The notes beneath the pieces were generated by a model that was not told the DNA's origin, ran no database searches, and saw nothing but the letters and a program-made list of their open reading frames with translations. Below, in pieces: positions 22,225 through 32,292 of a stretch of DNA of 32,292 nucleotides. This stretch comes from Desulfobulbus sp. Lineage in GTDB: Bacteria > Desulfobacterota > Desulfobulbia > Desulfobulbales > Desulfobulbaceae. Where the stretch lies: positions 1 to 32,292 of the forward strand of contig QZJD01000053.1 of the NCBI GenBank assembly GCA_003604995.1, in the 5' to 3' direction. Position numbers and translations under genes: made by a program. Within the stretch, counting starts at the first letter, position 1, and every line of letters begins with the position of its first letter.

Positions 22225-22632
22225 ATGGCGTTAATCCAGTGGAATGACAGTCTCAGCGTCAATATCGCGGAGATCGACCAGCAGCACCGGAAGCTCATCA
22301 GCCTGATCAATGATCTCAATGAGGCGATGAGCAAGGGCCAGGGCAGGACCGTGGTCGGCAAGATCATCCAGGGGCTGACCGAGTACACCAAGAGCCATTT
22401 TGCATTGGAAGAGCGGTATTTCGTCGCTTTCAATTATCCGGAAACGAGCAGGCATAAAAAAGAACATGCGGAATTTATCGCCAAGGTCTCCGAGTTCCGG
22501 GATGAGTATGAAAAGGGTCGGCTGGCACTTTCCATTGATGTCATGAATTATCTCAGCGACTGGCTTCGCCACCACATCAAAGGCGTGGACAAAAAATATT
22601 CAGCGTTTTTCAATGAACGGGGTCTGAAATAA
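22225..22632 (+). CDS. Bacteriohemerythrin
   Basis: A stand-alone hemerythrin-like protein that binds O2 at a non-haem di-iron site; in anaerobes such proteins are thought to scavenge, sense or deliver oxygen. All expected ligands are in place: His21 (IDQQHRKL), His58 and Glu62 (HFALEE), His77 and His81 (RHKKEHAEF), and His117 and Asp122 (HHIKGVD). The 135 residues are the usual length of the single-domain form, and the N-terminal WNDSLSVNIAEID matches the family. The ATG has AGAGGTG in front. It is cytoplasmic, with no signal peptide. It is preceded by copy D of the shared hairpin element and followed 59 bases later by a small secreted protein gene. Confidence 0.95.
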   Translation: MALIQWNDSLSVNIAEIDQQHRKLISLINDLNEAMSKGQGRTVVGKIIQGLTEYTKSHFALEERYFVAFNYPETSRHKKEHAEFIAKVSEFRDEYEKGRLALSIDVMNYLSDWLRHHIKGVDKKYSAFFNERGLK

Positions 22633-22691
22633 TTACGACCGCCCTGATAAATCCAACACGGACTTCCACCCCAGGAGCATAACGACTGCAT

Positions 22692-23174
22692 ATGAAAAAA
22701 TTATTTATTCTGTTGTTCCTCCTGGCCTTGACGCCTGCCGGCGTCTGGGCAGGCAATCCCGCGCCCTATACGGATGACGCCTTGCAGAAAATTAACAAGG
22801 CCATCAAAGGAACCCCGATGACGGAGCCTGTGCCTGAAACGGCAAAGGAGGACGTTCATCGACAAAATGTTGCGTATTTTTCCGAGGTGTTTGGCAAGGC
22901 GGGCTATAGCTTTACGGATACCATCGACAGGATCGTCGATGACATGAAGAATAATCCCAAGGCCATTCCTGAGGATCGGGAGACGGTCTACAATAAGGTG
23001 TATGTCCTTCTCCATATCCTGATGTACCAGTGCGATGCCGATCAGGTTGATTGTCTTGGGTTTTATCCCGCAAAGACGGCGGAATCCATCAAATGGTTCC
23101 GGGAAAACAGCGGGTTTAAACCGGGCGAACACCATCGGGAAAATAACAGAGCGGGCGGCGGCTTAAAAGACTGA
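22692..23174 (+). CDS. Small exported protein of unknown function
   Basis: I do not recognise this 160-residue protein. A clear signal peptide (residues 1-20, KK then a leucine-rich core, ending in VWA before Gly21) sends it to the periplasm or beyond. The mature part is helical and mostly charged, with two cysteines, Cys114 and Cys121, in YQCDADQVDCLGFYP that could form a disulfide or bind a metal. The C-terminus is hydrophilic and rich in His, Arg and Gly. The AGGAG is 14 bases before the ATG, longer than ideal. It lies 59 bases after the bacteriohemerythrin gene and may be co-transcribed, though a functional link is a guess. It converges on the ParA gene with 134 bases between. Confidence 0.75.
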   Translation: MKKLFILLFLLALTPAGVWAGNPAPYTDDALQKINKAIKGTPMTEPVPETAKEDVHRQNVAYFSEVFGKAGYSFTDTIDRIVDDMKNNPKAIPEDRETVYNKVYVLLHILMYQCDADQVDCLGFYPAKTAESIKWFRENSGFKPGEHHRENNRAGGGLKD

Positions 23175-23308: not shown

Positions 23309-24259
23309 TCAACCCCGGCCTTGAAGGGTTGGGATGGGCAGCGCGCTGATTTCGCGGGCGAGCTGCAGGAATTGCCTGGCAACGGGACAGTCGGCATCGT
23401 ACTGACTGACCGGCAGGTTGACGATCTGCGATTCTTTCATCTTTTCATCGAGTTCAATGACCGTGTTCAGCACCCGGCTGCCGAACAGGTCTCGAATCTT
23501 GCGGTAAATGACCTTGGCGGCGGTGCTGCGGGGATCATGCATGGAGATCAGGATCCGGTAGTCAAGTTCTCGTCCGGTTTTTTTCTGCACCACCTTGATG
23601 ATGTCCTCGATTTTATGAATGCCGTGCATGGACAGGTATTCGCAGGGGGTGGGGATCAACACCCGGTGGGCGGCCATCAGGGCATTGAGGGTGCAGAAAT
23701 CGAGGGCTGGTGGGGTATCGAGAAGAATGAAATCAAAACGCTCGATAACCCATTGCAGTCGATCGCGCAGGAGAAATTCAAAATTGGGCCGGTACATATA
23801 GTGCTTGGTCAGCAGTGCCATCCGGCTGTTCGAAGGCAGCAGGCTCAGGTTGGGGTAGCGACTTGCGTGGACATGGGGCAGAAGGTTGTCGGCGCCGCTT
23901 TGCAGGATGTCGAAGAACGAGGCCGAGTTACTTGAGAAGCCCAGGGCGGTCGTCAGGTTTGCCTGGACGTCGAAATCGATCAGCAGGACCTTGTTCCCCT
24001 CCTGCGCCAGGGCCATGCCCAGATTGAGGCAGGTGGTGGTTTTGGCCACCCCTCCTTTCTGGTTGCTGATGGCGATGACCTGATGTCGTCGGCCTGCTTC
24101 CGGTTCTTCCGGGCGAAACAGCTCCGCGTCCCGCTCAAGTTTTTTACGGACCACGAAAGCGTGATTGCACTGCGCGCAGCGGACCTTGAAGGTGGGCTTG
24201 GAAATGGCTGAGACATCCAGATTGTAGCGGCTGTTGCACTTTTCGCATTGGATGAGCAT
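23309..24259 (-). CDS. ParA-family ATPase with N-terminal zinc ribbon
   Basis: A ParA/MinD-type P-loop ATPase, the group that positions plasmids, chromosomes or protein arrays using ATP-dependent gradients. The N-terminus (residues 1-40) is a zinc ribbon with Cys5, Cys8, Cys28 and Cys31, of the MJ0042/zinc-ribbon-5 kind. The deviant Walker A KGGVAKTT (68-75) has the signature Lys68 and Lys73. FDVQANLTTALG and LLDTPPALD are the switch and Walker B regions. At 316 residues it is a ParA of ordinary size plus the ribbon. Its ATG is 2 bases after the CheA-like stop, with AAGGAA overlapping that gene's end, so the two are coupled. ParA proteins beside che genes (ParC, PpfA) place chemosensory arrays in other bacteria; the same role is inferred here. 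No ParB is adjacent. Confidence 0.88.
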   Translation of the reverse strand: MLIQCEKCNSRYNLDVSAISKPTFKVRCAQCNHAFVVRKKLERDAELFRPEEPEAGRRHQVIAISNQKGGVAKTTTCLNLGMALAQEGNKVLLIDFDVQANLTTALGFSSNSASFFDILQSGADNLLPHVHASRYPNLSLLPSNSRMALLTKHYMYRPNFEFLLRDRLQWVIERFDFILLDTPPALDFCTLNALMAAHRVLIPTPCEYLSMHGIHKIEDIIKVVQKKTGRELDYRILISMHDPRSTAAKVIYRKIRDLFGSRVLNTVIELDEKMKESQIVNLPVSQYDADCPVARQFLQLAREISALPIPTLQGRG

Positions 24260-24261
24260 GG

Positions 24262-27200
24262 TCAGTTCCTTGCTGCGGCTGTTGCCGTTTTCATGAGTCC
24301 TGATACGTCGGCAATAAAGGAAAAGTCACCATCGCCCTTGATGGGTGCGCCGGCAGGCTCGTGATGGTCACGCATATGTTCGGCCAATGGCTTGACCGCG
24401 ATCTCTTCCAGGCCGATCAGCTCATCCACGAGCAGGCCGATGAGACCTTCATCGGTATTGATCACCACCACCGGAAAACGCGGCCCGTGCTCCCGGGCAC
24501 CCTCCACCCCGGCCAGGCCGGCCAGGGAATGGAACGGGATGTTTTCAGCGCGATAGGAAATCTGCTCGCCACCATCACCCTGAATCAAAAGTTCCGAGGA
24601 CGCCCGTAGTATTTCCTCGACACCGGACAAGGGCAGGGCGAAAACCTCGCCACCGGCCCGGACCTTCAACACCCGGAAGGTCGGCAGCTTCAACGGCACC
24701 AGCAGCCGGATGCAGGTGCCCTGACCAACCGTTGTGCTGCACTGAATTATGCCGCCCAGCCCGTCGATGATCGACTTGACCCGATCAAGGCCAGGTATCC
24801 GGGCGTTCGGCGGCGCGCCGGGTTCGGTGCTGAAGCCGGGCGTCATGATCAGGCGGGTCAGGTCATGGTCCGACATCCTGTAGAGTTCATCGCCGCTGAA
24901 CATCTGCCGCGCTAACGCCGTCGCCTTGATGATTTTGGGGTCGATGCCCCGCCCGTCATCGATTACCTCAATAACTACATAATTTCCCTCATGGGCGGCG
25001 CGCAGGGTGATGGCGCCCGTATCGCTTTTCCCGAGTTGCCGACGTTCCGCGGGTGATTCGATGCCATGCTCAACTCCATTGGTGATCAGGTGGAGCAGGC
25101 AATCGTTGATATCCTGGACGCTGAATTGGTCTATTTCCGTGTCCTCGCCCTGGATGCGCAGCTCCACCCGTCGTTTACTCTTTTGGGCGAGATCGGCCAG
25201 CACCTCATGGTACAGCTCGAACAGCCGGCCGGCCGGGATCATCTTCACTTTGAGGATGCCATCACGGATCTCGCCGGAAACACGCCTTAAGGAGCTGGTA
25301 GCTTCCTGCAGGCGGCCCAGCAGGTCCTGCAGGGGGGAGAGTTCGGTACGGTCCGTAATACTGGCCTCCCGCAGGCGATGGCGGAGATTGCCTACCTCCT
25401 GGTACAGGTGAGCGAGGGCGGAGCGATTGGCGACCAGTTCGCCGACTTGATCCAGCAGGCTGTCGAGACGGCCAGCATCCAGACCGAAGGATTGCCTGAT
25501 ATCCGGGGCGGAGATCTGCCCCTGCGCTTCGGAGGGAGGAGTTTTTTCAGAGGGCGCGATGTCCGCGGCGGCCAGAATTTCTTCAATAACCTGATCAATG
25601 GGTTTTGCCGCCGCCTGGTCGTCATCTTCAGCGGTTGCCTCCAGGGCTCCAAGCAGGCGCTCGAAGAGCTTGCGTTCTTCCTCGGTTTCTCGGACATCCT
25701 GGCCGGTCTGCGGTTCGGAAACCGCTTTAGCGGCCCTGGCCTTGGATTTGTCCATGGCCGCTTCCAGGGTGGGGACTTCCTCCTCCATGGATTTCAGGGC
25801 ATCGCTGAGCTTGCGGAAGAGCTCCTGGCGCTCCGGAGGGGTGCTCTCTGTTTCCGGGGTCGAGGCTTCCTCGGGAACGGTTTCCTCTTCGATGTCGTTG
25901 AACAGGGCGGTAAGATCATCAACCGGTTCGGTGAATTTCTTGCGTGACAACGGCGAGGGCATTTCCTCAAAAAGCAGATCCGCGGCAGGGGAATCACCAA
26001 AGGCGGCAAGGGCTTCGTCTTCCACATCGAAATCCAGGTCGTCTCCACCCTCGGCGGCGGCGAAGAGTTCTTCAACATCCTCGATCATCGGCTTGGTTGG
26101 GGCCGTGAGCTGTTCATCATCATCCAGAAACAGAGACTCGATATCCTCCCCCGGTTTTTTTCGTGGGGCTTCCTGCGCGGGAGCTCCGGCTGGTTCTTCT
26201 CCGCTGAGTGCGGCTATGGGTTCCGCACCGATGTCAAAAGAGACCTCTTCGCCTTCGATAAATTCACCGAAGAAATTTTCAATTTCAGGTAGGGTGTTTT
26301 CCTCGGCTGAAGCGGATTCTTCCACGTCGAACTGGAGTTCGGCACCGGCAAGGGCGGCAACGGGCTCAGGTTCTGAAGACGGCGCAGGTTCTTCATCTTC
26401 AAAGAGATACGCTGCATCCGGCGTCGTCTTATCCAAAGGAGTTTGCGGGGCGGGCGCTTTCGTTGGGGTCAGATCCGGCAGATCCACGCCAAAAGTGCTA
26501 AAGAATTCATCTACTTCTGAAACGGCTGCTTCCTTGATACGTGGAACGGCCCTGGTCTCGATAAACTCGTCGGCGCTGCTGAGTGCGGCGACTGGTTCCG
26601 GCTCCGGCGCGTTTTCTTCATCGGTAAGGGGATTTTCCACAGATAGGGACGGGGCAAGAAGAGGGGCCGCTTCGTGTTCATCGCCAAAAAAATTGTCCAC
26701 CTCCGGCAGGTCGGCGTCCAAGACCATGTGGGGTTCCTGCCAACGCTCTTCTTCATCGTACCCGGTCAGGGCGGCAACAGGCGCGGAATCGTCCAGGAAA
26801 GCCTCTTCATCCTCTTCCTCATCGTCCATGCCGATGAAAAGCTCCTTGAAGGATTCGCTCTCATCCGGCACATTTTCTTTCGGTTTCTTGGGAGGGGGGG
26901 GAGGGGCGGCCGGTTCGGGAACAATGGTGACGGGCGCGGACACTTCCTTGACTTCAGGGAATATTTCCAGGATTTTGCCGATCTTCTCGTCCATGAAGGC
27001 GAATGGCACAGCCGTACCCATGGACAGGTCGACGCCGGCCATTTCCAGTTCAGCGATCCACTGCAGGTAATATTCGGCCAGCTGGTCGTACCCCATGTAA
27101 TTCGCCGAGGCCTGCAGCTTGCCGACCAGCGCCGAACACTGGTCCACAATGGCAGATTTGTGCGCTTCCTTTGAATATCTGTCAACCAGGGTCCTCAGTT

Positions 27201-28437
27201 GGGACAGATTTTCCTGAAGCTGATCGACAAAAATTTGAAAAAGCTCCTTGTCAAATGCCGCACTCTGTCGCTCCTGATCGAAAAATGATGGGTCAAGCGT
27301 GACCGGCGCGGCTTGAATTCGTTTTTTTCGGGAAAGGGCCGCGCCTGTTTTTGGAGGTTCTGAATGAGGCTTTCGTTCGGGAGGTTCATGGCCGGAAAGC
27401 GCGGCAACAGGTTCGGCTGACCCGTCGAAGGTAGTTGCCATGTCGCCGAAAAAATCAGAGAACGGTTCGCCGTCTCCCGCTTTTGCACTGGTCTGAGCTA
27501 TGGCCGATGCGACAGACTGCGGCGGGGAGAGTTCGCCCCAGGCTTTGCGGACAGCGGCGGCGCTGGCCGGGGTGTCCTGCACTTGCGGGAACAGGCCGGC
27601 GATCATCGTGAGCCGTTCTTCCATGAAGGAAAGGGAGGTCGGAGTGCCCATGGTCAACTCGACCCCGGCCATTTCAAGTTCCGCCACCCACTGGAGGTAA
27701 TAATCGGCCAGTCGGTCGTAGCCCATATAATTGGCCGAAGTCTGTAATCTGCCGACCAGCTCCGAGCAAAGGGTGATGATTTTCGCCTGGTTGGGTGCTG
27801 CCGGATAATCGTTGATCAACGCCCGCAACAGCGAAATGTTTTCCTGCATCTGTTCGATGAATATCTGAAACAGCTCACGGTCATACTCCTGTTTTCTGAT
27901 TTCGTCGGGAAGCAGGGAAGACGCGTCTTCCGCTTCCTCGGCCACAGGATCCGTTGCTGGAAACTCCAAGGCGGGGGTGAGCTGCTCCAAGGCTGAAAAA
28001 GGGTCTGCTGGCTGAACAGGGGGGAGCGGCGAGGTCGCCGGCTGAACAACCTCGGAGGTCGCTGCCATCTCTTGCTGGATGCGTTTGAGCAGGTCCTTTA
28101 CCGTTGCCCGTTCTTTGTCCGTGGTATTCAGGTCATGGAGGAGCTTGCTCAGTCTGTCGCGACCGGCGGCAAGGATGTCGATCTTTTCCGGGTTGACGGC
28201 AAGGCGGTCCTGGCGAATTTGCTGCAGAAGGTTTTCCAGGTGAAAGCAGAGTTCGGAAATGCGGCCGAGTCCGGCCGGCAGTGCGCCATTTTTGATCGCA
28301 TGGACTGCACGGTAAATATCGTTGAGGAACTCCCGGTCATTGGGGTTCTTCTCATGCTTGAGCAAGCTCTGCTTGATCTGCTCAAGCCGGTCCGTGGCCT
28401 GGTCTATGAAACCGGCGTATTTGGAGGAGTCAGCCAT
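24262..28437 (-). CDS. CheA-like histidine kinase with one intact and two degenerate Hpt domains and a motif-rich linker
   Basis: A 1391-residue chemosensory kinase. Residues 1-110 are an Hpt domain with the likely phospho-accepting His46 in AVHAIKNGA. Residues 185-287 and 394-496 are two closely similar Hpt-like domains (each with LQxSANYMGYD and AELEMAGV) in which the His aligns with Gly, so they cannot take phosphate. A long acidic, probably disordered linker (about 500-970) carries PVAAL(S/T/A)G-type motifs near 341-349, 551-559, 614-621, 691-698 and 739-746, the first lying between the two Hpt-like domains. The conserved end has a dimerisation helix pair (about 985-1075), a CheA-type ATPase with N-box HLITNGVEHGIE, DDGRGID and GLDRVK (about 1110-1245), and a CheW-like domain (about 1250-1385). 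The multi-Hpt layout recalls PilL/ChpA of type IV pilus systems. It sits between the chemoreceptor and ParA genes. Confidence 0.9.
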   Translation of the reverse strand: MADSSKYAGFIDQATDRLEQIKQSLLKHEKNPNDREFLNDIYRAVHAIKNGALPAGLGRISELCFHLENLLQQIRQDRLAVNPEKIDILAAGRDRLSKLLHDLNTTDKERATVKDLLKRIQQEMAATSEVVQPATSPLPPVQPADPFSALEQLTPALEFPATDPVAEEAEDASSLLPDEIRKQEYDRELFQIFIEQMQENISLLRALINDYPAAPNQAKIITLCSELVGRLQTSANYMGYDRLADYYLQWVAELEMAGVELTMGTPTSLSFMEERLTMIAGLFPQVQDTPASAAAVRKAWGELSPPQSVASAIAQTSAKAGDGEPFSDFFGDMATTFDGSAEPVAALSGHEPPERKPHSEPPKTGAALSRKKRIQAAPVTLDPSFFDQERQSAAFDKELFQIFVDQLQENLSQLRTLVDRYSKEAHKSAIVDQCSALVGKLQASANYMGYDQLAEYYLQWIAELEMAGVDLSMGTAVPFAFMDEKIGKILEIFPEVKEVSAPVTIVPEPAAPPPPPKKPKENVPDESESFKELFIGMDDEEEDEEAFLDDSAPVAALTGYDEEERWQEPHMVLDADLPEVDNFFGDEHEAAPLLAPSLSVENPLTDEENAPEPEPVAALSSADEFIETRAVPRIKEAAVSEVDEFFSTFGVDLPDLTPTKAPAPQTPLDKTTPDAAYLFEDEEPAPSSEPEPVAALAGAELQFDVEESASAEENTLPEIENFFGEFIEGEEVSFDIGAEPIAALSGEEPAGAPAQEAPRKKPGEDIESLFLDDDEQLTAPTKPMIEDVEELFAAAEGGDDLDFDVEDEALAAFGDSPAADLLFEEMPSPLSRKKFTEPVDDLTALFNDIEEETVPEEASTPETESTPPERQELFRKLSDALKSMEEEVPTLEAAMDKSKARAAKAVSEPQTGQDVRETEEERKLFERLLGALEATAEDDDQAAAKPIDQVIEEILAAADIAPSEKTPPSEAQGQISAPDIRQSFGLDAGRLDSLLDQVGELVANRSALAHLYQEVGNLRHRLREASITDRTELSPLQDLLGRLQEATSSLRRVSGEIRDGILKVKMIPAGRLFELYHEVLADLAQKSKRRVELRIQGEDTEIDQFSVQDINDCLLHLITNGVEHGIESPAERRQLGKSDTGAITLRAAHEGNYVVIEVIDDGRGIDPKIIKATALARQMFSGDELYRMSDHDLTRLIMTPGFSTEPGAPPNARIPGLDRVKSIIDGLGGIIQCSTTVGQGTCIRLLVPLKLPTFRVLKVRAGGEVFALPLSGVEEILRASSELLIQGDGGEQISYRAENIPFHSLAGLAGVEGAREHGPRFPVVVINTDEGLIGLLVDELIGLEEIAVKPLAEHMRDHHEPAGAPIKGDGDFSFIADVSGLMKTATAAARN

Positions 28438-28462
28438 GATTCATTTTTACCGGTTCAGCAGT

Positions 28463-28525
28463 GTCAGTCTCGCAATGGGTTGCGGCTGACGCCGGCAACC
28501 TTAGAAAGTTGTTGCAAGCACGGCG
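28463..28525 (-). repeat. Four-copy hairpin element, copy C (before the CheA-like gene)
   Basis: On the minus strand CAACAACTTTCTAAGG is followed by TTGCCGGCGTCAG. A stem-loop pairs GTCAG with CTGAC and, inside it, CGCAA with TTGCG around loop CCCA. The core is 52 bases (28463-28514), the same as copy A. It fills most of the 136-base gap between the chemoreceptor and CheA-like genes and ends 25 bases before the CheA-like ATG. No ordinary ribosome site is obvious in those 25 bases, so the structure may matter for translation. Confidence 0.55.
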
Positions 28526-28573
28526 GTTGGGCAGCATGGTTATTTCCAGTGCATCCATGAGCAGAGGGGCGAT

Positions 28574-30898
28574 TCAGCTTTGGCTGCCATGGCCGGCGGC
28601 CCTGGTCGATAAATGCTGAACCGCGTTGTCGTCCTGGTCATCCTGAAGGATTTTTTTCATCATGTCTTCCAGGGGTTGCTCTTCCTCGGCCGGGGTGCGG
28701 GAAAGTGCTTCAAGTTGGGCAAGTCCGTCCGCTATGGCGCCGTTCAGAGGTTCGATCTCCCGGGTCAGGGAGTGCAGCCTGCCCCCGATTTGGTCGAATT
28801 CGGCAAGGAGCGCGCCGGTTTCGCCGACTTCCGTCTGGATGGCCGAGGCCCTGTTGCTCAGTTCCTCGATCTGTCCCAGACACGAAGTTGCGGTTGCGGC
28901 AAGGTGCTGAAGGGCTTGGCGCGTTTCATGGCCTGCTTGTTCACCCCCGGTGATACCAGCGTTGAGGTCGTCAAGCAGTCGGGTAACGTCCCGGGCGGTT
29001 TGCATGGCCTGCTTGGCCAGTTTATCCAGCTCTTCGGTGGCCGAACTCAATTCCTTGTCCGGTACGCCGGCGCGGCTCGCCTTGATGGCTGCATTCAGGG
29101 CCATTACGCTGGTCTGCTCGGTAAGTTCGGTGAAGGCGTTGACAATCTGGGCGATTTCCCCGGCCGGCAGGGAGAGGTTCGACAGGGTGTCGATCGCGTT
29201 GTTTATCGACTGCTCACAACCTGTCAGAGCCTGTTGCAGATTTCCCTTTTGTTCCGACAGGCCGTCAGTCAGATACTGCATCTGTTCGGTATCGGTTCGC
29301 AGCCGATCGACAACGGTACTGACCTGGTTCGCCACCTCTTTCTGTTGCAAAAAGCTACCGGTGAGTTGTCCCTCATGCTCCGCTTTGTCGCGAAGGCATC
29401 GTGAAAGGTGACCGGTATTCTGGGACAGGCTCGCAAGAAGGTCCTCGCTGCCGCCGGCATTTGCTGTTTGCTGGCGGTACAGGATGTTCAGGGCGCCGGC
29501 CAGACCGTCAAACTCGTTTTTTTCGAGAGGGAAGGCCAGATTCGGATCACCTTGGGCCGCCATGCGGTGGGCAATGTCGGTCATTCGCTGAAGGGGTGCG
29601 GCAAGGGATGCGGTGAGCTTCCGGGAGATGAACAGGAGGACGAGCACCGTGGCCAGCCAGGAACCGGCAATGACGGCTAGACTCAGCATCGGCACCCGGC
29701 CGGCTGTTGGCGGAGGAGAAGGGGCCGGGAGCGATACCTTGGGGGCAGACGCCGTGATTTGTTTCTCGAGTGCGGCAAAGTTGTTGTCAACGTCTGCCTC
29801 CAGGGCGGCGATTATCCTGTTCTGTTCCACCAGGGCGGCAAAGGCCGCCTGATTTTCCAGAATAACAGATTTCATGGCGTTTTTCCGTGCATCCGACGGA
29901 GCGGAGGAATCCAAGGCGTTGAGGGCCTCTTCCAACATTTTCGCAACCAGCGCCGCGCCGGCCGCATCACCTTGCTTCAGGTATGCTTCTTCCTGTTGGC
30001 GGAGGGTTTGAAGTGAATTCTCATCCCGGGATGGACCAAGGGTGCTGTGCAGTTTTTCGAGGTTCAGGGCGGCCTGATGCATGGCCTCTTCCTGTTTGAT
30101 CTGTTCCGCGGCAAAAGAAGCTGCCAGCGCGGGGTCGTTGGTCGTCAGGCTGACCGCCAGGTACCGGTCAAAAGCGGTTAAATAGTTGTTGATGCCGGTC
30201 TGGATGGCCTGGAGTTCCGGAGCGGGCAGTCCGCTTTTCAGCGCGGCCTCGGCCAGCTCATTGGCTGCGGCCGCCAGCAGTCGCTGGTTTTCGACGCCCG
30301 GGGCAGCGAAATAGTTCTGTTCGGCCCTGCCGAGCTTCAGCAATGCTTCTGTCAACCATTGGTTCTTCGCTCCAGGGACGGTCGGAGCGGCGGTAAGATT
30401 TTGGGCGGCCTCTTTCAGTTTCAACCTGAGGCCCGAATCGTCGTTAATCCCCTTGACTTCCCAGGCCTGGACCAGTTCATGAAATGAGGCGTTATAGCGC
30501 GAAACCAGCTGGGACAGCTGCGTCCCCGCCGGGGCATCTTTCCGGTCCTTGCCTTGAGTCTTCTTTCCCAGATCAAGGGCGTGGGCCAGCAGTTTTTTGC
30601 CTGCTTCTTCAAATTGAACCACGCTGGCCGGAGTCTGCTCTTTGCGGAAGGCCTGCTCGATGGCTCTCGCTTCCTGAAGGATCGAGGAGGCCTTGCCCGG
30701 TATCTGCCCGGATTTTACGTTCTGCGCTGCCGGGGACGTGACGGGCCGGGCTGCCGGCTGAGGCAGGGTAATGAGCGTGTAGAGGCTGTAACCGGCCAGG
30801 AGGGTGACCAGCAACAGAACGGCTCCCATGCTCATCTTGATTTTCGACCCGAGTCCGCCCCCGGCATATTTTTTTGAGCCGGAAGATCCTCTGCTCAT
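28574..30898 (-). CDS. Methyl-accepting chemotaxis-like receptor with HBM-like sensor and degenerate signalling tip
   Basis: A membrane chemoreceptor of 774 residues. TM1 is about residues 22-44 and TM2 about 403-425, enclosing a helical periplasmic domain of roughly 357 residues; its length and the RAEQNYFAAPG segment (191-201) suggest a helical bimodular (HBM)-like sensor, which in other receptors binds organic acids. A HAMP domain follows (about 426-480). The cytoplasmic coiled coil keeps the tip region as TEQTSVMALNAAIKASRAG (593-611), but the normal continuation (GEqGRGFAVVA) is replaced by VPDKELSSATEELDKLAKQ. The signalling domain ends early, with no C-terminal CheR-tethering pentapeptide. 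A strong GAGGAGGAGGAA precedes the ATG. It is presumably the input for the CheA-like kinase encoded next; the ligand is unknown. Confidence 0.86.
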   Translation of the reverse strand: MSRGSSGSKKYAGGGLGSKIKMSMGAVLLLVTLLAGYSLYTLITLPQPAARPVTSPAAQNVKSGQIPGKASSILQEARAIEQAFRKEQTPASVVQFEEAGKKLLAHALDLGKKTQGKDRKDAPAGTQLSQLVSRYNASFHELVQAWEVKGINDDSGLRLKLKEAAQNLTAAPTVPGAKNQWLTEALLKLGRAEQNYFAAPGVENQRLLAAAANELAEAALKSGLPAPELQAIQTGINNYLTAFDRYLAVSLTTNDPALAASFAAEQIKQEEAMHQAALNLEKLHSTLGPSRDENSLQTLRQQEEAYLKQGDAAGAALVAKMLEEALNALDSSAPSDARKNAMKSVILENQAAFAALVEQNRIIAALEADVDNNFAALEKQITASAPKVSLPAPSPPPTAGRVPMLSLAVIAGSWLATVLVLLFISRKLTASLAAPLQRMTDIAHRMAAQGDPNLAFPLEKNEFDGLAGALNILYRQQTANAGGSEDLLASLSQNTGHLSRCLRDKAEHEGQLTGSFLQQKEVANQVSTVVDRLRTDTEQMQYLTDGLSEQKGNLQQALTGCEQSINNAIDTLSNLSLPAGEIAQIVNAFTELTEQTSVMALNAAIKASRAGVPDKELSSATEELDKLAKQAMQTARDVTRLLDDLNAGITGGEQAGHETRQALQHLAATATSCLGQIEELSNRASAIQTEVGETGALLAEFDQIGGRLHSLTREIEPLNGAIADGLAQLEALSRTPAEEEQPLEDMMKKILQDDQDDNAVQHLSTRAAGHGSQS

Positions 30899-30998
30899 CT
30901 ATTCCTCCTCCTCAGTTGTCGCATTCGACGTATCCTTTAGCCGCTGTTGCCCCTGCCGTGCGGAATAGTATCAGAAAGGCCGGTTAGACGAAGCGAGA

Positions 30999-31691
30999 TC
31001 AGTCATCGTCATCGCCGTCCTGGGGAATGACCTCAGTACCCTGCATCATCATCGCGGTCAGGGTATTGTCGGTTTCGTGGGAAAACACTTCGGGCAAAGG
31101 CTTGATCCAGTACCTGGCCGGACCCCAGCTCAGCATTTCCTGCAGCGCTCCTACCCCGGCCTGCTGTTCTGTCCGGACATCGCTGATCACGCCGTTCTCG
31201 AATATAAATGTCCCTTTTTTGTCCAGTCCGGCACTGGCTTCCAGCAGACATGACTTCTGCATCATGTTGATCAGCGGGAGCATGGCCGGAATATAGATGC
31301 CGGGCCGGAAATTGATTTCGTCGCGACAGTCGAGCATCCTGATGATTTCGCCGTGGAGCCGGATGTGGTTGAAGGGTTTATTGATATAGCTGAACAGACT
31401 GTCGCCCTGGAATTTTTTTCTCAGTGCATGGTCGCGCAGGGAGGTGGTGACGATGCAGAGCATGTTCGGGTATTCCCGGGTCACGGTAGCCAGCAGTTCA
31501 ACACCGTCCATTCTCGGCATCTGCAAGTCGGTGACCAGGATGACCGCCTTGGTCGATTTAAGAATGGCCAGTGCCTGGACGCCGTGGACCGCGGTCTGGA
31601 TATCAAACTGGCCAAATTTCTGCAGTCCTGTTTTGAGGCTGCCAAGCAGCTTGACATCGTCATCCACGATCAGAATCTTATCTTTTCCCAT
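30999..31691 (-). CDS. Response regulator with receiver and PATAN-like (DUF4388) domains
   Basis: The first gene of the chemosensory locus. A complete receiver fills residues 1-122, with Asp10-Asp12, phospho-acceptor Asp55 in VTDLQMPRMDG, Thr83 and Lys105 in NKPF. Residues about 128-200 resemble a PATAN/DUF4388 domain (IPAMLPLINMM, GTFIFENGVISD and ALQEMLSWG). This domain occurs in cyanobacterial PatA-type regulators of pilus phototaxis, where the order is PATAN then REC. An acidic tail GDDDD ends the 230 residues. The frame continues upstream to 31775, but ATG at 31691 (MGKDKILIVDD) is the natural start. No DNA-binding or enzymatic domain is present, so it probably works by protein contacts as an output of the CheA-like kinase. 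It has a strong promoter about 300 bases upstream. Confidence 0.85.
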   Translation of the reverse strand: MGKDKILIVDDDVKLLGSLKTGLQKFGQFDIQTAVHGVQALAILKSTKAVILVTDLQMPRMDGVELLATVTREYPNMLCIVTTSLRDHALRKKFQGDSLFSYINKPFNHIRLHGEIIRMLDCRDEINFRPGIYIPAMLPLINMMQKSCLLEASAGLDKKGTFIFENGVISDVRTEQQAGVGALQEMLSWGPARYWIKPLPEVFSHETDNTLTAMMMQGTEVIPQDGDDDD

Positions 31692-31774
31692 GGAGCAACC
31701 TGATGATAAAATTTTCGCAATGCATATCCCGTTGTTCGGGAAAGTAAAAATACATCGTATCCTTTTGATCCCCA

Positions 31775-31856
31775 CGCAAAATGTGTCGACCGTGGCATGC
31801 CTCCTTCGGGAGGCACGAGAGTCTGGAGCATGCCGTCATCGGAAAAGCATTTTGCG
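31775..31856. other. Structured leader or RNA with nested stems and a UUCG tetraloop
   Basis: CGCAAAATG (31775-31783) pairs perfectly with CATTTTGCG (31848-31856). Inside, GGCATGC (31794-31800) is matched by GCATGCC (31828-31834). Innermost, GCCTCC (31799-31804) and GGAGGC (31809-31814) flank TTCG, the classic stable C(UUCG)G tetraloop when read on the plus strand. On the minus strand it would lie in the leader of the response regulator mRNA with loop CGAA. Which strand is transcribed as the working RNA is open; the tetraloop favours plus, the promoter at 32007-32036 favours minus. Confidence 0.45.
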
Positions 31857-31919
31857 GTTCAGAGATAGAATCGGTGCCGTATTCCCGGTAACCCGCAAGA
31901 AGTGGCTATGCTGGGCATT

Positions 31920-32003
31920 CGCCTCTGTATCTCAACAAGTTGCAGGGGTTGCCGGCGTCAGGCCTGCTCTTTTAGCGGAACCGGCATTCTTTACCGAACT
32001 GAC
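31920..32003 (+). repeat. Four-copy hairpin element, copy B
   Basis: CAACAAGTTGCAGGGG followed by TTGCCGGCGTCAG (31933-31961) leads to a longer loop region and then CTGAC at 31999-32003. Upstream bases CGCCTCTGTATCT (31920-31932) also resemble those before copies A and D. Unlike the other copies it lies opposite in direction to the nearest gene (the response regulator) and next to that gene's promoter. Its downstream partner, if any, would be on the plus strand beyond the window. Confidence 0.5.
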
Positions 32004-32006
32004 AAA

Positions 32007-32036
32007 ATTATATGAATAATACAAAAAAGAAGTCAA
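32007..32036 (-). promoter_or_regulatory. Strong sigma-70-type promoter of the chemosensory locus
   Basis: On the minus strand TTGACT (32031-32036) and TATAAT (32007-32012) are 18 bases apart in an AT-rich setting, the best consensus promoter in the window. The start would be near 32000, giving a leader of about 310 bases to the response regulator ATG that includes the complement of copy B and the nested stems at 31775-31856. Confidence 0.65.
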
Positions 32037-32077
32037 GCCGGCATCCTTTTTATTTGTTGAATATTATTCATTAATCT

Positions 32078-32119
32078 ATGACGGCCGCGCTTTCATTCAT
32101 TGTACGGCGCGACCGTCAT
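32078..32119. repeat. 13-base inverted repeat, ATGACGG...CCGTCAT
   Basis: Arms 32078-32090 and 32107-32119 match at 12 of 13 positions (ATGACGGCCGCGC against ATGACGGTCGCGC) with a 16-base loop. There is no T-tract after it. It could be a terminator for something to the right, an operator, or an element end. Confidence 0.5.
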
Positions 32120-32190
32120 GGCCTTTTCAACCGATTACAATGACCGAACGCGAAGTCACGCGCCTTCTACGGAACCGACAACTGATGCCG

Positions 32191-32221
32191 GGACACTAGT
32201 GTCCGGTTGTTATTCGAATAA
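32191..32221. promoter_or_regulatory. Two adjacent perfect palindromes (possible operator sites)
   Basis: GGACACTAGTGTCC (32191-32204) is a perfect 14-base palindrome and TTATTCGAATAA (32210-32221) a perfect 12-base one, with centres 18 bases apart. Such pairs suit dimeric regulators. No regulator can be named, and the gene they might control is outside the window. Confidence 0.35.
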
Positions 32222-32292
32222 TTTCAGCTGGTTGCACGATGGGGCGGGCTTGCTCGCGCAATCTCGATCCGTAATTAGCTGATATATCGTGC

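Follow-up and report, generated by a model that had tools for sequence, protein, structure and literature searches.

Reduction of a ParA-linked chemosensory locus in Desulfobulbus sp. suggests a docking scaffold derived from a signalling machine

The window analysed here is a stretch of 32,292 nucleotides from Desulfobulbus sp. (GenBank assembly GCA_003604995.1, contig QZJD01000053.1) and makes up the whole of contig G000:C25, in a genome of 2.64 Mb estimated to be 74% complete. On its minus strand, on which the operon genes and domains given below all lie, open reading frame and Pfam scans revealed a chemosensory operon in the order REC-PATAN regulator, receptor, CheA-like protein and ParA. 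From gene content and sequence comparison, the locus is best read as descending from a complete chemosensory cluster linked to ParA that was reduced in place; within the genus, CheW and the CheB-like genes of the operon would have been lost, and so would CheY if sister genera are taken as the guide. The best explanation of what is left, and in our view a narrowly probable one, is a scaffold without catalysis, linked to ParA, on which PATAN receivers dock.

The four genes (REC-PATAN, receptor, CheA-like protein and zinc-ribbon ParA) claimed in an earlier sequence-only reading are present, by Pfam matches, and that reading had made its case depend on their order recurring in relatives. The order is kept in six of the seven genomes of the genus (the window and L072 to L076, hereafter the reduced loci), and the arrangement is therefore more than chance. 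The seventh genome, G502, carries a full locus, composed of a REC-PATAN-REC-CheB fusion, a receptor, CheW, a HAMP protein, CheA, a second CheB-like gene and ParA; no CheY gene was called in it, and the place where one would be expected holds a receiver-like match that contains one stop codon. The full type with CheY is found in sister genera and in another family of the order, and full-type clusters occur among named records in Gammaproteobacteria (L101, L102, L104), Desulfatitalea (L100) and a deltaproteobacterium (L103, partial). The full clusters (L077-L089, L091, L039, L040, L092-L096, L100-L104) resemble the window in pairing a zinc-ribbon ParA with a neighbouring CheA that carries His-less P1-like repeats, in their REC-PATAN and CheB-like proteins, and in that no CheR gene was seen in them, their flank genes not all having been scanned with a CheR model. 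What sets them apart from the window is the presence of CheW and CheY, of a canonical CheA G2 box and receptor tip and of one or two additional CheB-like genes; an ABC importer also follows downstream in those whose contig extends far enough. No separate CheW or CheY was found in the window or beside the other five reduced loci, and CheW-domain genes are present elsewhere in the window's own genome.

The gene folC lies upstream of both the full locus of G502 and the reduced loci L072, L074, L075 and L076, in most cases with a gene of 751-811 aa and another of 134 aa beside it; the L073 contig is too short to show folC, and on this flank the window's own genome is different. Since the full locus of G502 adjoins the same folC flank as four reduced loci, the reduction would have happened in place, and the presence of full loci in outgroups makes loss the simpler reading. 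We rejected the idea of the reduced locus as a second copy beside a full one, given that searches found one member of the ParA clade per genus genome, that they gave no such full-type CheA for the six, and that the flank is shared. This clade (E <= 1e-45) was found in 21 of 73 family genomes, including 7/7 of the genus, and in a phylum sample it occurred in 11/395 genomes, with the zinc ribbon covered in six, the window's own genome being counted in both figures. The six reduced proteins fall on one side of a branch in the ParA tree with weak support (78/69), and they group together with strong support (100/100) in the CheA C-terminus tree, where long branches may help. A wider contig scan gave at least 80 loci, most of them apparently ordinary ParA genes by match; among six of the listed loci that were inspected, L100-L104 belong to this system and L105 does not.

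The clearest sequence changes are in the CheA-like protein (1391 aa, 24262..28437), which consists of a P1/Hpt domain, two His-less P1-like repeats, a long linker, P3, P4 and P5. The G2 box of the ATP lid is intact (GRGVGMD) in 21/21 full CheA proteins, a count that excludes L090 on a short contig, and broken in 6/6 reduced ones, reading NARIPGLDRV in the window (24778..24807); L073, L074 and L075 retain two of its glycines and the window one. The first P1 His is found in 20/21 full CheA proteins, the exception, L096, having a later P1 with His. Among the reduced loci, the window, L072 and L075 have kept this His, and L073, L074 and L076 carry Arg instead. The residue after the P1 Lys/Arg is N or D in 6/6 reduced proteins, with K-N in the three that bear His. 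The N-box histidine position, which like the P1 His has a catalytic role, follows the same split in the alignment as the latter, being changed in L073, L074 and L076. In the window, P1/Hpt (aa 3-99, 28141..28431) thus reads HAIKNGA, the usual K-G being altered to K-N, and P4 (HATPase, aa 1069-1253, 24679..25233) keeps its N and G1 boxes, as well as F box PGFST; of the kinase motif set (P1 His, N, G1, F, G2), G2 is broken. A P3-P5 model was poor overall (pLDDT 63); in it, P4 had a pLDDT of mostly about 80-90 outside the lid and below 50 in the lid itself (model residues 231-240). The sequence-only reading had taken this CheA as a working kinase, which finds no support, the ATP-lid box being broken in all six reduced loci. 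With catalytic residues lost, and fold and selection kept, the protein qualifies by its sequence as a predicted pseudokinase, or rather as a CheA that appears to be turning into one.

The receptor has changed along with it. The window gene encodes an MCP-type receptor of 774 aa (28574..30898; PF00015, 59.9 bits, and a weak HAMP) with two transmembrane-type hydrophobic stretches at about 20-46 and 402-436 in the hydropathy profile; it had been called PilJ-like, but Pfam and NCBIfam gave generic MCP matches only. The receptor tip NAAIEAARAG..GKGFAV is found in 19/19 full-locus receptors (out of 21 loci, L078 and L040 having no receptor in the available stretch), and the change of that E to K and of the last G to E is shared by 6/6 reduced receptors and by 0/19 full ones. 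The window tip reads AIKASRAGVP (29060..29089), with the Lys codon at 29081-29083 in place of the Glu. In the Tsr trimer of dimers, E385 and R388' are described as being joined by an ionic lock (PMC8144572). By our own placing, the changed Glu would be the equivalent of Tsr E385, so that the trimer-contact Glu is lacking in the reduced receptors, which are predicted to be without the usual array contacts.

Where selection still acts is indicated, descriptively, by the mean pairwise identities within the reduced and full sets (the full set being represented by 7 of its 21 CheA proteins, which we picked for spread, and the receptor figure by 5 of those 7). Identity is lower in the reduced set for P1 (48% against 67%), P3 (42 against 66%), P4 (48 against 71%), P5 (40 against 69%) and the receptor end (27 against 63%), and higher for P1-like repeat 1 (66 against 51%), repeat 2 (62 against 36%) and ParA (65 against 58%). 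The full set spans a wider range of descent than the reduced one, which makes it more striking that identity in the catalytic parts falls in the narrower set. In this comparison constraint appears to have moved from Hpt, P3, P4, P5 and the receptor to the two His-less P1-like domains, which are now seemingly the most conserved CheA parts of the reduced set. All reading frames are open in 6/6 reduced loci, and the dN/dS ratios (NG86) are all well below 1, at 0.05-0.18 for REC-PATAN, ParA and the CheB-like gene described below and 0.22-0.42 for CheA and the receptor. In the closest reduced pair, L073/L074, they were 0.13 for REC-PATAN, 0.16 for ParA, 0.18 for the CheB-like gene, 0.34 for CheA and 0.42 for the receptor, with 0.20 for P4 alone. 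The window/L072 ratios (0.05-0.39) are rough because synonymous sites are near saturation. Window REC-PATAN is 90% identical to its closest relative, L072, with a dN/dS of 0.05, and ParA ratios range from 0.10 to 0.16.

The two repeats lie at aa 182-287 (27577..27894) and aa 394-496 (26950..27258) of the window protein. Every CheA examined has at least two of them, and none of 55 repeats carries a His at the aligned position; they present a conserved SANYMGY face. The sequence-only reading had described a multi-Hpt protein: one P1/Hpt with His is there, but the two further Hpt-like repeats lack the His, like decoys. Repeats compared with the Hpt (P1) profile in hhalign gave an E of 1.1e-5 (probability 82). 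The AlphaFold2 model of window repeat 1 is a four-helix bundle (pLDDT 88.8), and its best Foldseek match is the CheA P1 structure 1tqg (TM 0.72/0.76, with a weak E of 0.099), to which it also has a sequence profile match (E 5e-4). VIA-align does not tell CheA P1 apart from designed bundles and BRIL fusions (a design reaches Z 13.4 and 1tqg 13.1), so kinship with P1 is shown by the profile and hhalign matches and not by the fold on its own.

A further conserved partner is encoded outside the window. A PATAN-REC-CheB-like gene is present in 7/7 genus genomes and is divergent to the operon where the contig spans both sides. The window ends about 600 bp upstream of REC, and this neighbour was therefore invisible to the sequence-only reading; in the window's own genome it is found at C29:283-1662, at the left contig edge. 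The L072 intergenic region matches the window end over 80 bp and the C29 start over 45 bp, and because both contig ends match parts of this one region, C25 and C29 are very probably neighbouring contigs, with 31692..32292 as the start of the intergenic region common to the two transcription units. Within it, 31998-32076, upstream of REC-PATAN, is 91% identical over 80 bp to L072; a core of 30-46 bp also occurs in L073, L074 and L075. The stretch contains the palindrome GAATATTATTC and is probably a shared divergent promoter or operator. An element centred on CACTAGTG lies near both contig ends (window 32185-32211 and G000:C29:80-107) and is likely a repeat at the assembly break. After the CheB-like gene, C29 continues with a different gene block, the same as that beside an orphan REC-PATAN of G502, so that the window's genome has been rearranged there.

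The CheB-like gene lacks the S, H and D triad residues in 7/7 copies, the triad being taken as given in a figure legend of PMC7698151, and the canonical CheB proteins of the same genome, used as a control, had S, H and D in 3/3. In the full loci the triad is intact in 4/19 first CheB copies, all four in one distant family (f56), in 0/21 second copies, where H is E or D, and in 0/13 PATAN-REC-CheB-like copies. This near-universal loss indicates that CheB adaptation was probably weak or absent already before the reduction. The earlier statement that there is no CheR, CheB, CheW or CheY is thus correct for the window, which holds none of these genes, and needs amending for the locus, given the triad-less CheB-like gene on C29. 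Neither cheR nor cheY, which would have counted against the earlier interpretation had they lain just outside, is beside the reduced loci. What stands is the absence of adaptation enzymes that look active: CheR genes of the genome were found only on C11, C12 and C15, contigs on which its other CheA, CheW and CheB genes also lie.

Upon the reduction, the loss of catalytic motifs, the shared tip change, the shift in constraint and the co-conservation of both PATAN proteins with ParA, all observed in the genus, a model could be built in which we infer the functions of the parts. The receptor would anchor the assembly in the membrane and hold the CheA-like protein, whose two His-less P1-like domains would dock the receivers of REC-PATAN and of the divergent PATAN-REC-CheB-like protein; ParA would position the assembly or share it out at division, and the target of the PATAN domains would be a machine of the cell surface, the motor of the type IV pilus being the probable one. 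The receivers, if phosphorylated at all, would probably be so by another kinase of the cell. In its most far-reaching form, which we put forward only tentatively, a chemosensory machine would have become, within one genus, a phosphorylation-independent docking platform placed by ParA, the two His-less P1 domains being matched to the two PATAN receivers, and the kinase, receptor coupling and adaptation being dispensed with.

Alternatively, and at least in the window lineage, CheA could have a diverged ATP lid and yet still work as a kinase, phosphorylating REC-PATAN via P1 in a minimal pathway free of adaptation. We regard this as unlikely, albeit worth weighing, since the window CheA keeps its P1 His and its N, G1 and F boxes, REC-PATAN keeps the acidic pocket, the aspartate and the lysine, and P4 shows a dN/dS of 0.20 in one pair. 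However, the G2 glycines are lost partly or wholly in 6/6 reduced loci, the P1 His is gone from three, the same three in which the N-box histidine position is changed, the other three have K-N, and conservation of P3, P5 and the receptor has fallen. A second alternative, rather improbable in our opinion, would have another CheA or kinase phosphorylate the PATAN receivers, with the pseudokinase only sensing or sequestering them in the manner of DivL (PMC4211667). The REC aspartate retained in 5/6 reduced loci and the other chemosensory genes on C11, C12 and C15 would fit such a reader, but the operon is kept in L075, where the aspartate is replaced (D to C), and no link to another kinase was found. 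Finally, mere decay after loss of function, which the different motif losses among members and the low receptor-end identity could suggest, is very improbable given the open frames, the low dN/dS ratios, the preserved gene order and the two receptor-tip changes common to all six.

Several points also weigh against the non-catalytic scaffold. In the window itself the P1 His, the N and G1 boxes and the aspartate of the receiver are still there, and its CheA may have some kinase activity; an aspartate kept in five reduced loci would be needless in a phosphorylation-free system. In the comparison of constraint a single genus is weighed against two families, and purifying selection on P4 in L073/L074 is expected of an active ATPase too. 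No pil gene lies nearby, none being found in the window. The orphan REC-PATAN of G502 lies on another contig, and it bears on the origin of the regulator. Matches above 260 bits to window REC-PATAN were found in 7/257 order genomes, all in the genus, and G502 has two, one of them this orphan (G502:C16:16930-17631, L224:8930-9631), which has no receptor, CheA or ParA nearby, carries A at the aspartate position and is 61-67% identical to the reduced-locus REC-PATANs compared. The REC-PATAN tree joins five reduced proteins (99/99) and does not place L075, the G502 fusion or the G502 orphan. A split of the REC-PATAN-REC-CheB fusion as the source of REC-PATAN was rejected as unproved at the resolution of this tree.

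In regards to the remaining features, REC-PATAN comprises 230 aa from a conserved ATG at 31691 (30999..31691), where its homologues start, an upstream GTG at 31775 not being common to them. Its receiver matches PF00072 with 69.4 bits. The PATAN match (PF14332, DUF4388) is under the Pfam cut-off in the window (18.6 vs 25 bits), and the homologous part of the G502 fused protein reaches 32.7 bits; we count it as a receiver-PATAN protein in a chemosensory locus with a window PATAN that is itself below cut-off. For CheA the P1, P3, P4 and P5 matches are all above cut-off, with P3 (dimerisation region, aa 976-1068, 25234..25512; PF02895, 35.1 bits) supported by alignment as well, and P5 (CheW-like, aa 1254-1388, 24274..24678) matching PF01584 at 63.7 bits. 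The latter is the sole PF01584 match on C25, and no ParP with a CheW-like AIF domain was found there. The linker (25513-27576) contains a PVAALSG-like motif five times in the window and four times in L072, both of which also carry several VDNFFGD-like motifs; the former was not found in L073, L074 or six full CheA proteins checked. These motifs look like short binding motifs.

The ParA-type ATPase (316 aa, 23309..24259; Pfam AAA_31, 161.6 bits; Zn_ribbon_4, PF13717, 43.8 bits) has an intact deviant Walker A (NQKGGVAKTT) and an N-terminal CxxC..CxxC zinc ribbon (24152-24259), and among 10 relatives C5, C8, C28 and C31 are invariant and KGGVAKT is conserved. That ParA is part of the system, as had been proposed, is borne out by the reduced and the full loci alike, where its gene accompanies this CheA. 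A separate zinc-ribbon ParA family (27-30% identical; L043, L044, L046 and others) adjoins prs or small unrelated genes in many genomes of the order. Convergent with ParA in the window (22225-23174) are a hemerythrin-like gene and a 160-aa gene without a Pfam match, neither of which is matched by a gene of the other reduced loci. Downstream of ParA the full clusters L039 and L079-L089 have the ABC importer (permease, ATPase and NMT1/SsuA-type binding protein), several also having another HAMP protein there; the reduced loci are without the importer, which may supply the receptor's signal in the full type.

As to the output, a role other than flagellar steering had been favoured, and it is supported by the finding of type II/IV pilus-type (PilB/PilT-type) ATPases in 7/7 genus genomes and of a flagellin N-domain match in 0/7. 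PATAN domains are reported to bind PilB in Synechocystis (PMC10519157; also PMC7690835). The likeness drawn to cyanobacterial Pix/Tax holds for a receiver joined to PATAN in a chemotaxis-like cluster, and the PATAN domain is all that carries it: as described in these two sources, PATAN is N-terminal, whereas here it comes after REC in the operon gene and before it in the divergent one, and ParA does not figure in their accounts of Pix/Tax. The Vibrio ParC/ParP system, in the description of PMC5706961, likewise encodes a ParA-like protein with chemosensory genes; the window differs in having no ParP-like adaptor and a ParA with a zinc ribbon. Rhodobacter PpfA/TlpT, named in the same source, also associates a ParA-like protein with a chemoreceptor cluster, but PpfA serves a cytoplasmic one and the window receptor has two membrane-type stretches. 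On the whole, the sequence-only reading proved partly right in its observation and its interpretation found partial support.

Pseudokinases are known among ordinary histidine kinases. DivL of Caulobacter is described as one that binds DivK~P, its kinase fold serving as a receiver-binding module (PMC4211667), and it resembles the reduced CheA in that the kinase fold is kept and catalysis lost. It differs in having lost the His only, with all boxes including G2 kept, whereas the reduced CheA has lost G2 in 6/6 and His in 3/6; moreover, DivL is a DHp kinase, the window protein is a CheA, and receiver binding by the latter is a prediction. Within the open-access literature, subscription journals being mostly outside its scope, we found no described chemosensory operon with catalysis lost yet under selection.

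The His-less P1 repeats and triad-less CheB-like proteins are widespread in the full loci, which suggests that partner docking may already have been a function before the kinase was lost, and the data as a whole suggest that a signalling machine was turned into a docking scaffold in one genus. If this is true, the genus would offer a before-and-after series, with G502 full and six genomes reduced, for a chemosensory scaffold that works without phosphate and for the role of ParA in it.

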